From the NCBI GenBank assembly GCA_017992605.1, contig JAGOOG010000011.1, positions 1 through 64,000 on the forward strand: a DNA stretch of 64,000 nucleotides. Direction: 5' to 3'. Positions 37,451 to 41,023 of this stretch are shown here, piece by piece (the first letter of the stretch is position 1; each line of letters opens with the position of its first letter). The notes beneath the pieces were generated by a model, which was not told where the DNA came from, made no database searches, and saw only the letters and a program-made list of their open reading frames with translations. Source of the stretch: Deltaproteobacteria bacterium (GTDB lineage: Bacteria > Desulfobacterota > Desulfomonilia > UBA1062). A program made the position numbers and the translations under genes.

Positions 37451-38992
37451 TCAGCGAGGACGACGTCCAGTCAGGAATCCCCGCATCCCCAGGAGCCACA
37501 GGAGTGCGAAGTACAGAGCCCCTCCGAGAATGACGGCAGCAGCCAAGAGCCCGCCAGTGGCAGGACTCAGCCCCGACTCCCATACCTCCATGCGGGCAAA
37601 GGGCACCAGGACCACCCCCATTATCGCAGACGCGACGAGCATCTTGCCGACCTGCTTGCGGTGCTCTCCGGTCATGCGGATGCCCGATCTCAGGACATAG
37701 CGGTGCTGGATGAACAGCTGGACGAGGACGGAAAGGCTGCTGGCAAGGGCTATGCCCGCGTGCCGCAGGCACGGCATGAAGATGAGGCAGAACAGCACGT
37801 TCGCCGCCAGGGATACCCAGGATATGTTGACCACCACCTTTGCCTTCTGCATGGCGTAGAGGGCCTGCGTCTGTATCCGCGTGTAACCCACGGCCCAGAG
37901 GCTCAACCCGTACATCTGCAGCGCATACGCCGATGCGAGGGTATCTGCGTAGGTAAAGGCCCCCCGCATGAAAAGCACGGCGAATATGGGTTTTGCCAGA
38001 ACAACGGCGCCGACCGTGGCGGGTATGGTGAAGAGGAGCACGGAAAGCACGCCGCGCCCCATGAGAAAGGAAAAATGCCCTGTGTCCATACGTGCCGAGG
38101 CAGAGCTCATGGACGGCAGCATCACGTTCCCCACGGCAAAGGCGAAGACCCCCAGGGGGAGTTCGAGAATCCTGTTGGCATAGTAGAGGTAGGACACGCT
38201 CCCCTGGGCAAGGAGCGATGCGAGCAGGGTCCCCACGAGCACGTTGATCTGGTAGATGGACGCCCCGATGGCTGCGACACCGACCAGGCGCACCACCTTC
38301 CGGACACGGGTTGAACGGAATTTCCTGAGGAATCCGATGGGCACACCCCGCCTCTTCAGCGGAGGTATCTGCAGGAGAATCTGTGCGACTCCACCTGCGA
38401 CCACCCCCCATGCCAGGGCGTCTGCCGGCGACGGGATCAGGGGAAAGGCGACATGCAGGACAACAGGAACGCCGATCATGAAGACGTTCATGACGATGGG
38501 GGCTGCAGCAGGCATGGCGAAATGCCCCAGGGAGTTGAGGATCCCCATGAACAGGGCGGCTATCCCGATGAGCATGATGTAGGGGAACATGATGCGGGTC
38601 AGATGCACCGTGGTGTCAAAGACCGGGAGATGGAGGAAGCCCGGTGCGATAACCGTCACGAGGACCGGCGCTGCAATCTCGCCGATCAGCACGATGACGG
38701 TGAGCGCCACGAACATGAGGGTGAGGACCTCGCGGGCCATGCGGTATGCCTGCTCCACGCCCTCTCGTTCCTTTACCTCGCTGAAGACGGGTACAAAGGC
38801 CACGCTCACGGCACCCTCGGCCATGAACCGCCTCAGCAGGTTCGGAAGCCTGAAGGCGACGACAAAGGCATCGGCAAGGGGACCCGCGCCGAGCAGCCAG
38901 GCCATGACCATGTCACGGACAAAGCCGAGGACGCGGCTGATGGCGGTGAGGCCGCCGACCGTGGCAACGTTCTTCCGGAAGCCATCCCTCAT
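37451..38992 (-). CDS. murJ: Lipid II flippase MurJ
   Basis: 513 residues, about 14 transmembrane helices. Moves lipid II across the inner membrane for peptidoglycan synthesis. The N-terminus is typical (VATVGGLTAISRVLGFVRDM, then ADAFVVAFRLPNLLRRFMAEGA), and VAFVPVFSEVKEREG follows. The charged residues in helices 1, 2 and 8 of MurJ are in the expected blocks. It follows the DUF1573 gene by 44 bases, same strand, and may share its transcript. Confidence 0.93.
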   Translation of the reverse strand: MRDGFRKNVATVGGLTAISRVLGFVRDMVMAWLLGAGPLADAFVVAFRLPNLLRRFMAEGAVSVAFVPVFSEVKEREGVEQAYRMAREVLTLMFVALTVIVLIGEIAAPVLVTVIAPGFLHLPVFDTTVHLTRIMFPYIMLIGIAALFMGILNSLGHFAMPAAAPIVMNVFMIGVPVVLHVAFPLIPSPADALAWGVVAGGVAQILLQIPPLKRRGVPIGFLRKFRSTRVRKVVRLVGVAAIGASIYQINVLVGTLLASLLAQGSVSYLYYANRILELPLGVFAFAVGNVMLPSMSSASARMDTGHFSFLMGRGVLSVLLFTIPATVGAVVLAKPIFAVLFMRGAFTYADTLASAYALQMYGLSLWAVGYTRIQTQALYAMQKAKVVVNISWVSLAANVLFCLIFMPCLRHAGIALASSLSVLVQLFIQHRYVLRSGIRMTGEHRKQVGKMLVASAIMGVVLVPFARMEVWESGLSPATGGLLAAAVILGGALYFALLWLLGMRGFLTGRRPR

Positions 38993-39036: not shown

Positions 39037-39771
39037 TCAATCACCCACGACCGATGCCCTCACCTGGACTGTTTTCACCTTGAGTCCTTCCAGGTTGGTT
39101 TCGAACTGCAAGAGCCCGAGGAACCGATCATCCTTGCGCAAGGGCTTAAAACTCACCGTAATCGATGTTGCTTTTCCTTTTTCGAGCATGATGTTCCCGT
39201 TGTGCGATATCGAGAGCAGCGTATCCGGGAAGGCGGAAACCTTCGACAGCATGATCGGCCCGTTACTTTTGTTCGTTATGGTCACCTCTCGGGTATTGAC
39301 TGAGCGGGGTCTCACCGTCCCGAAGTTTACCACCTGAGGGTCTATTCTGAGGATATCAACTACCTTAAGATTCACGGAAAGTCGGATGACCGCTGCATCA
39401 GGATCGTTCGTCTCGACCTCGACACTCTTCGTGAAGGGATCCCTGCCCCTGACATATTTCGTCGGAACGGTCACGACGACCTTCTGCGTCTTCCCCGGCT
39501 CAATCGATGTCCTTCCGTCCTCGATCTGCCGCCCCCCCGGGACGGTCACCTGCGCCCCTCAACAGGGTTTGGGCTTGATGAGGAGGTTCCTGTCTCCGAT
39601 ATTCCTGAACATGAATTCATGGGTGACATCCATGCCCTCGGGGACTGTCCCGGCATCGTACACGGTCTTCCCCACCTGCACCCTGGGAGATGCGTGGCAT
39701 GAGAGCTCCATGAGCACGATGATTGTCAGGCTCAGGATAAACATGCCTGTATACCTTGAGGTTTTCACCAT
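39037..39771 (-). CDS. DUF1573 exported protein, candidate selenoprotein (in-frame TGA)
   Basis: 244 codons read through a TGA at 39561-39559 (residue 71). GGAGG precedes the ATG; a signal or anchor follows (MFILSLTIIVLMELSCHA). The first half has the DUF1573 core YDAGTVPEGMDVTHEFMFRN and GDRNLLIKPKPC; directly after the TGA, in the same frame, GAQVTVPGG and SIEPGKTQKVVVTV continue the family. The TGA falls where relatives usually have the first Cys of their SCGCT motif. A GC-rich hairpin follows at SECIS distance. I therefore read it as selenocysteine; a nonsense mutation or sequence error is the alternative. Two Ig-like domains (residues 33-130 and 135-244) are seen. Confidence 0.6.
39529..39545 (-). 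promoter_or_regulatory. Candidate bacterial SECIS hairpin downstream of the in-frame TGA
   Basis: On the minus strand, counting from the base after TGA, positions 14-30 (CCGTCCCGGGGGGGCGG) fold as a stem of six or seven pairs (one G-U) with an apical loop of three to five G-rich bases starting at about 20. Bacterial SECIS elements sit within the coding region with the apical loop about 16-37 bases after UGA and a G in the loop, which this meets. Any GC-rich gene can form such hairpins by chance, so this is supportive only. Confidence 0.35.
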
Positions 39772-39883
39772 GAATCCACCTCCGTTTTCCGCTAGCATAA
39801 AATATTTCCCATTTCCAGAGGGTATTTGGCCATCTCTCTGCGAACCGGTTGACTTTTCAGGCTCCGCAGCATACATCTTACGC

Positions 39884-41023
39884 ATGCGCGGCAAACTTGA
39901 ACACCCCAGAGGACTTATCGAACTCATCTCAGTGGAAGTCGAGCGTATCGACACCGAATACCGAGAACTCTGGCTGAGCTTCGAGTATACCTGCCCGGGC
40001 GGCGAATACAAGTCTGCAATGGTGCTGCCCATAAGCAATTCCAAGGAAATGGCGAACTTCTTTTTCAAGGAACTCATCAGCGAGGCCAAGCATCTTTCCG
40101 AAATAGAGAAGAACGAGGCACTGAGCGTGGGCCTGTATGTGGCAAACAAGACCGACACCATGCTTCCCATCAAGAACCTGTGCCAGCGTGTCATCGATGC
40201 CCTCAATGCAGATGGCGACCTCCAGGAGAACAGGGAGTTCATCGACCTGTGCACCTCGGGTTTCCACTTCAAGGACGGCACAAGCAGCCTCAGCTCGAAG
40301 GGGTTCGAGGAGCGCTTCAAGATATTCATGAGCAGGGCCACTCAGAAGATGTCCCAGGGGTACTACACCATAGCGGCGGATGATCTCGAGAAGGCCAATG
40401 TCCTGTGCTCCACGAGCCCCCTGATCTCCAAGCTCATCGGCATCTGTCACCGGGAGCTGGGGCACCTCGACCTTGCCCTGGAGATGTTCAACCGGGCCAT
40501 GGACCTGGGCGACAAGGAGAAAGAGACCTACCTGTACCTCTCCGAAATACATTTCTTTCTCAACGACATGGAGCAGGCGTACGAGATCCTCGAAAAGATG
40601 CTCCATGAGCACAGGGATGACATCAGGGCCCTCGTCGAGCTTGCGAACATCAACTATCAGATGGACAGGGAGTACCTGCCCCTCCTGGACAGGGCATATG
40701 CCCTCGACACGGAGCAGACCCGGGACACCATCCTCCAGACCTTCGTGTTCAAGAAGGTCGGAGGGGGCAGAAGAACGAGGATATCCATCGGGGATGCGGC
40801 CGGTCTCCTCGGGATACCCGAGCAGAGTATCAGACAGCTGGTCCTCTCCAACAAGATCCCGGTGAGGGCCTTCCCCGACAACGAGGAACTGATACTGGAC
40901 GAAAACGAGCTCAAGGCCTGGGCTCATGTATACAGGAGATACAAGCTGCTGCAGGATGAGATCGAGAGAGTTAACACTCAGCAGGGAGGGGATAAAAATC
41001 AGGGCATGGCTCTACTTTCCTGA
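39884..41023 (+). CDS. Protein with TPR-like repeats and C-terminal MerR/excisionase-type HTH
   Basis: 379 residues from the ATG at 39884. The N-terminal 150 residues (MRGKLEHPRGLIELISVEVE..., SFEYTCPGGEYKSAMVLPIS) match no family I know. TPR-like repeats follow (ISKLIGICHRELGHLDLALE, LSEIHFFLNDMEQAYEIL, ALVELANINYQMDREYLPLL). The C-terminus carries an HTH of the excisionase/MerR type (RISIGDAAGLLGIPEQSIRQL, then NKIPVRAFPDNEELILDENE). There is no ribosome site; TTGACT 35 bases upstream with a weak -10 would put transcription near the ATG, so the message may be leaderless, but this is weak. The 3' end overlaps the hydrolase gene by 68 bases. Confidence 0.65.
   Translation: MRGKLEHPRGLIELISVEVERIDTEYRELWLSFEYTCPGGEYKSAMVLPISNSKEMANFFFKELISEAKHLSEIEKNEALSVGLYVANKTDTMLPIKNLCQRVIDALNADGDLQENREFIDLCTSGFHFKDGTSSLSSKGFEERFKIFMSRATQKMSQGYYTIAADDLEKANVLCSTSPLISKLIGICHRELGHLDLALEMFNRAMDLGDKEKETYLYLSEIHFFLNDMEQAYEILEKMLHEHRDDIRALVELANINYQMDREYLPLLDRAYALDTEQTRDTILQTFVFKKVGGGRRTRISIGDAAGLLGIPEQSIRQLVLSNKIPVRAFPDNEELILDENELKAWAHVYRRYKLLQDEIERVNTQQGGDKNQGMALLS

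Follow-up and report, generated by a model that had tools for sequence, protein, structure and literature searches.

The gene at positions 39037–39771 (minus strand) of the window, as the whole 64,000-nucleotide stretch of DNA analysed is named here, very probably encodes an exported selenoprotein of 244 amino acids with two Ig-like domains and a Cys70-Sec71 pair, as judged from sequence comparison. The in-frame TGA at positions 39559–39561 (minus strand), corresponding to residue 71 and placed just after Cys70, is, on comparative grounds, almost certainly a real selenocysteine codon. The C-U form of this protein, P-C-U-G-[A/V], appears to constitute a distinct new branch of a known selenocysteine-containing family and not a new family.

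The genome containing the window (2.71 Mb, 63 contigs, 98.5% complete) was compared with those of 23 relatives from the same bacterial family. TGA occupies this codon in one or more homologues from each of the 24 genomes, 26 genes in total, with protein identities to the window protein from about 56% down to 27%. Decay or a sequencing error is unlikely because the TGA sits at the same codon in all these genes, and the selenocysteine reading proposed in the preliminary description was thus supported. The motif [P/G/R]-C-U-G-[A/V] was present in 24 of the 26 genes and H-T-U-G-V in two, L041 and L043 (genus g6, genomes G009 and G015), which retain Sec with neither Cys partner. The Cys-Sec pair is not universal in the family, Cys70 being Thr in these two genomes, and since they keep Sec without the neighbouring Cys, Sec itself seems to be the key residue.

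Gene product, domain organization and possible function

The gene starts with ATG at position 39771 (minus strand), 7 nt downstream of a Shine-Dalgarno sequence, GGAGG (39779–39783, minus strand), read from the sequence, and terminates with TGA at positions 39039–39037. A general reassignment of TGA to a sense codon was discounted, since neighbouring genes and this gene end in TGA. A good ribosome site, one reading frame on both sides of the internal TGA, a signal segment for export and the lack of other lesions had been claimed previously, and all four points held: GDRNLLIKPKPC, GAQVTVPGG and IEPGKTQKVVVTV lie in the same frame, the TGA at 39561–39559 is the single internal stop, with no other lesion, and a hydrophobic N-terminal segment ending in A/S-P is also present in relatives of the window protein. 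The signal segment comprises residues ~1–28 (39688–39771, minus strand), with a predicted cleavage near the HAS/PR junction, on the basis of the sequence and of a helix at residues 2–23 in the structural model. Judging from this segment, the protein would leave the cytoplasm by the general secretion route.

The read-through protein reached 60.6 bits against Pfam DUF1573 (PF07610; curated cut-off 26.1), which places it in this family, and 63.1 bits against the HYDIN/VesB Ig family. The Pfam match extends across residue 71, and a search at the genome level likewise listed a DUF1573 match that contains '1 TGA'. Ig-like domain 1, of the DUF1573/HYDIN type (39379–39687, minus strand), bears the Cys-Sec turn and is followed by Ig-like domain 2, of the ASH/HYDIN type (39094–39351, minus strand). 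The two AlphaFold models, of the C-U and U-G-C forms, had pLDDT values of 91 and 88, with Sec in a turn between equivalent strands. The product is thus predicted to consist of two Ig-like beta-sandwich domains, with Cys70-Sec71 located where a tight turn connects two strands of domain 1. Fold comparison yielded chiefly HYDIN/ASPM/ASH-type Ig repeats, among which no informative enzyme and no named reaction were found. Besides the motif, the columns invariant in the family are Gly, Pro, Asn, Leu and Thr.

Cys70 and Sec71 may cycle between the selenol/thiol form and a vicinal selenenylsulfide, which would make the product a thiol or peroxide redox protein of the periplasm, at work in the cell envelope; we give this function about an even chance. 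Alternatively, the Cys-Sec turn might bind a soft metal (Cu, Hg or Zn) or carry selenium, instead of taking part in redox catalysis. In its favour, soft metals are well coordinated by vicinal Cys-Sec on general chemical grounds, Ig/HYDIN-type folds act as scaffolds, and the fold comparison brought up no clear enzyme domain. However, no second conserved set of ligands was detected in the family, nor any metal-handling gene adjoining the DUF1573 selenoprotein gene in the neighbourhoods examined, and metal binding or selenium carriage is considered somewhat unlikely. The C-U branch is also a place to seek the function of DUF1573.

Relationship with OS_HP2 and other DUF1573 proteins

DUF1573 is a known predicted selenocysteine-containing family with the motif UGC (PMC9312934, PMC13188914), and it appears as OS_HP2, with the motif UxC, in PMC2398784. 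According to the citations in PMC9312934 and PMC13188914, this Sec form has been listed since 2007 (Zhang and Gladyshev). It is also covered by the NCBIfam model NF041425, 'OS_HP2 family (seleno)protein', with a curated cut-off of 100 bits. The preliminary description had regarded the gene as a candidate new selenoprotein; this claim of novelty was not sustained, as the U-G-C form was already established. It could be argued, further, that the window gene belongs to the established OS_HP2/DUF1573 selenoproteins and offers no novelty. Both groups share the Ig-like domain of DUF1573, carry Sec at the homologous turn and occur in Thermodesulfobacteriota, and NF041425 was the only Sec family model matched by the window protein. 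However, the window protein scored 49.6 bits with this model and a further two C-U members 56.4 and 67.4 bits, well below the cut-off, whereas three U-G-C proteins from the same phylum scored 110.2, 97.3 and 122.6 bits. The OS_HP2 motif is [S/G/T]-U-G-C, while that of the C-U branch is C-U-G-[A/V], followed by a hairpin of different sequence, at a locus fixed beside murJ; the U-x-C (UGC) motif was absent from all 26 genes of the C-U branch. Additionally, both C-U and U-G-C proteins are encoded in seven genomes of the family (G007, G012, G013, G014, G016, G020 and G023), which indicates that they represent paralogous lines. Plain membership of OS_HP2 is therefore unlikely, and a separate C-U branch is favoured.

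The profiles of the C-U and U-G-C proteins were aligned with the Sec, −1 and +2 columns masked; the probability was 99.9 and the Sec columns coincided. Therefore, the Sec residues are homologous, with the partner Cys at −1 in the C-U branch and at +2 in OS_HP2.

Cys homologues at the Sec position, which the preliminary description had suggested seeking, exist both as SCGCT proteins and as an ACCG paralogue. The Cys-containing DUF1573 proteins with SCGCT belong to the same domain family and have their first Cys at the Sec position, but they lack Sec and carry Cys at 0 and +2. The earlier proposal of a C-U pair in which Sec takes the place of the first Cys of an SCGCT-like motif was supported. 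The paralogue from the same genome as the window (G000:C23, L002, positions 1309–2097) has K-A-C-C-G, with Cys-Cys at the Cys70-Sec71 columns, but differs from the window protein in its identity of 26% over ~100 amino acids, its other locus and the absence of UGA. A Cys orthologue at the murJ locus itself was not found in the family genomes. A Cys-Cys-Gly DUF1573 paralogue, the Cys counterpart of C-U-G, was also detected in G003 (L081). Other DUF1573 paralogues of the family (L042, L051, L052 and L054) show CGCGG, CESCNG or CTCGG, without Sec.

Other selenoproteins with a CU motif are SaoL, KCU-star and MbdU (PMC13188914). They also possess adjacent Cys and Sec, but belong to other families, and the window protein did not match their NCBIfam models. 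No mention of the C-U branch was found in the literature searched, and no NCBIfam model covers these proteins. The NCBI family model now in use misses the branch, so annotation will probably split such genes in two. U-G-C, C-U-G, lone T-U-G, C-C-G and S-C-G-C are natural variants that share one fold and lend themselves to testing what the partner Cys does.

Distribution and genomic context

To assess the distribution of the C-U branch, 84,980 species genomes were scanned with an exact nucleotide pattern encoding PCUG[A/V]xxx[A/V]PGG. The scan yielded 29 matches, 17 of them real genes, all from the one family already sampled and assigned to Deltaproteobacteria, Thermodesulfobacteriota or Syntrophaceae (Syntrophales). 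The other 12 matches were due to chance and lay in unrelated frames. In these searches, the C-U branch turned up in a single family of Thermodesulfobacteriota (Syntrophales-like); its range may be wider because the strict pattern misses variants.

The next gene downstream, separated by a gap of 44 bp, is murJ (37451–38992, minus strand; TIGR01695, 387.7 bits), which comes immediately after the selenoprotein gene in 23 of the 24 genomes. Upstream lies a divergent TPR/helix-turn-helix gene (39866–41023, start approximate, plus strand), a conserved neighbour located there in nearly all genomes whose contig reaches far enough.

This arrangement could point to a partnership with MurJ in which the redox state of the protein influences the flipping of lipid II or a different step in assembling the envelope. 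The constancy of the pair, in genomes whose MurJ identities fall as low as 53%, and the predicted export of the protein are consistent with such a role. The argument is one of neighbourhood, however, and vertically inherited synteny can outlast a functional link; moreover, in genome G005 the gene occurs as a tandem pair that is not beside murJ. A functional partnership with MurJ is considered rather improbable. The same grade is assigned to a broader scenario, for which we see only a slim chance, that of a distinct envelope selenoprotein subfamily whose redox partner of Sec moved from +2 to −1 on the Ig-like scaffold, and which is retained beside murJ throughout a bacterial family and contributes to redox control of the envelope (cell wall).

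The tandem pair of C-U genes in G005 is at locus L050 (G005:C96), and a third, partial C-U copy was observed on another contig of this genome (L057, G005:C298).

SECIS hairpin and selenocysteine machinery

A bacterial SECIS hairpin, CCGUCC-CGGGG-GGGCGG, was identified at positions 39529–39545 (minus strand), on the basis of covariation, frozen synonymous sites and published constraints. It has a stem of 6 bp and a 5-nt loop. The spacing between the UGA and the stem is 13 nt, the stem starting at the 14th base and the loop, CGGGG, after 19 nt, in agreement with the hairpin previously noted 14 bases past the UGA. The published constraints for bacterial SECIS elements are a loop of 3–9 nt, a stem of 4–16 bp, a G at loop position 1–2 and a distance of 16–37 nt from the UGA (PMC13188914); the hairpin agrees with all of them, the G being at loop position 2. 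SelB bound to this hairpin would bring Sec-tRNA to the UGA.

Over the 26 sequences, 94% of the cells were paired, and changes on both sides were observed in four of the six pairs. The covariation score was 0.303 vs 0.144 in shuffles and was reached by none of 500. Sliding the partner strand by 1–3 columns destroyed the covariation, and RNAalifold recovered the same helix unprompted. The single-sequence fold of this region, which is very GC-rich, was no more stable than shuffles (z 0.52).

Synonymous sites are a cleaner test of the hairpin because the helix lies within coding sequence. Synonymous identity was 0.91, 1.00, 0.78 and 0.95 at codons +6, +7, +9 and +10, which cover the stem together with the conserved G of the loop, against 0.31 at codon +8, the third base of which lies unpaired in the loop, and 0.3–0.6 at most other nearby codons; the probabilities for these sites ignore relatedness, and the argument lies in the contrast between neighbouring codons. 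Pro +7 is encoded by CCG in 26 of 26 genes vs 33% CCG elsewhere in these genes.

The genome containing the window encodes SelB (329.4 bits, cut-off 242), tRNA-Sec (selC; 72.6 bits, cut-off 47, anticodon UCA) and SelD (373.2 bits). The expectation of sel genes in the same genome was thus confirmed for selB, selC and selD. As to selA, it was not found in three of the five congeners, namely the own genome (G000), G001 and G003, whereas G002, G004 and the majority of the family possess it. G000 likewise lacks the genes that flank selA in G002, although their occurrence differs among members of the genus. An assembly gap probably accounts for the missing selA, given the retention of selB, selC and several Sec genes and the lack of the G002 selA neighbourhood in G000.

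That the UGA is an ordinary stop in a pseudogene, a sequencing error or the boundary of two separate proteins is scarcely credible: UGA also terminates this gene and the downstream part has a GTG-started open reading frame, but 24 separate genomes share this stop at one and the same codon and show no further lesion, termination there would split an Ig domain, the synonymous sites downstream are frozen and the selenocysteine machinery is present.

Other in-frame TGA codons were observed in the same genome. Five formate-dehydrogenase-like (FdhA-like) genes each contain a single TGA at the customary position, and selD itself contains one in-frame TGA (loci L106–L109, L111 and L104 for these six genes). 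A hairpin with a GGUCU loop follows the TGA in four of the five FdhA-like genes at a distance of 18 nt, near that of the window hairpin.
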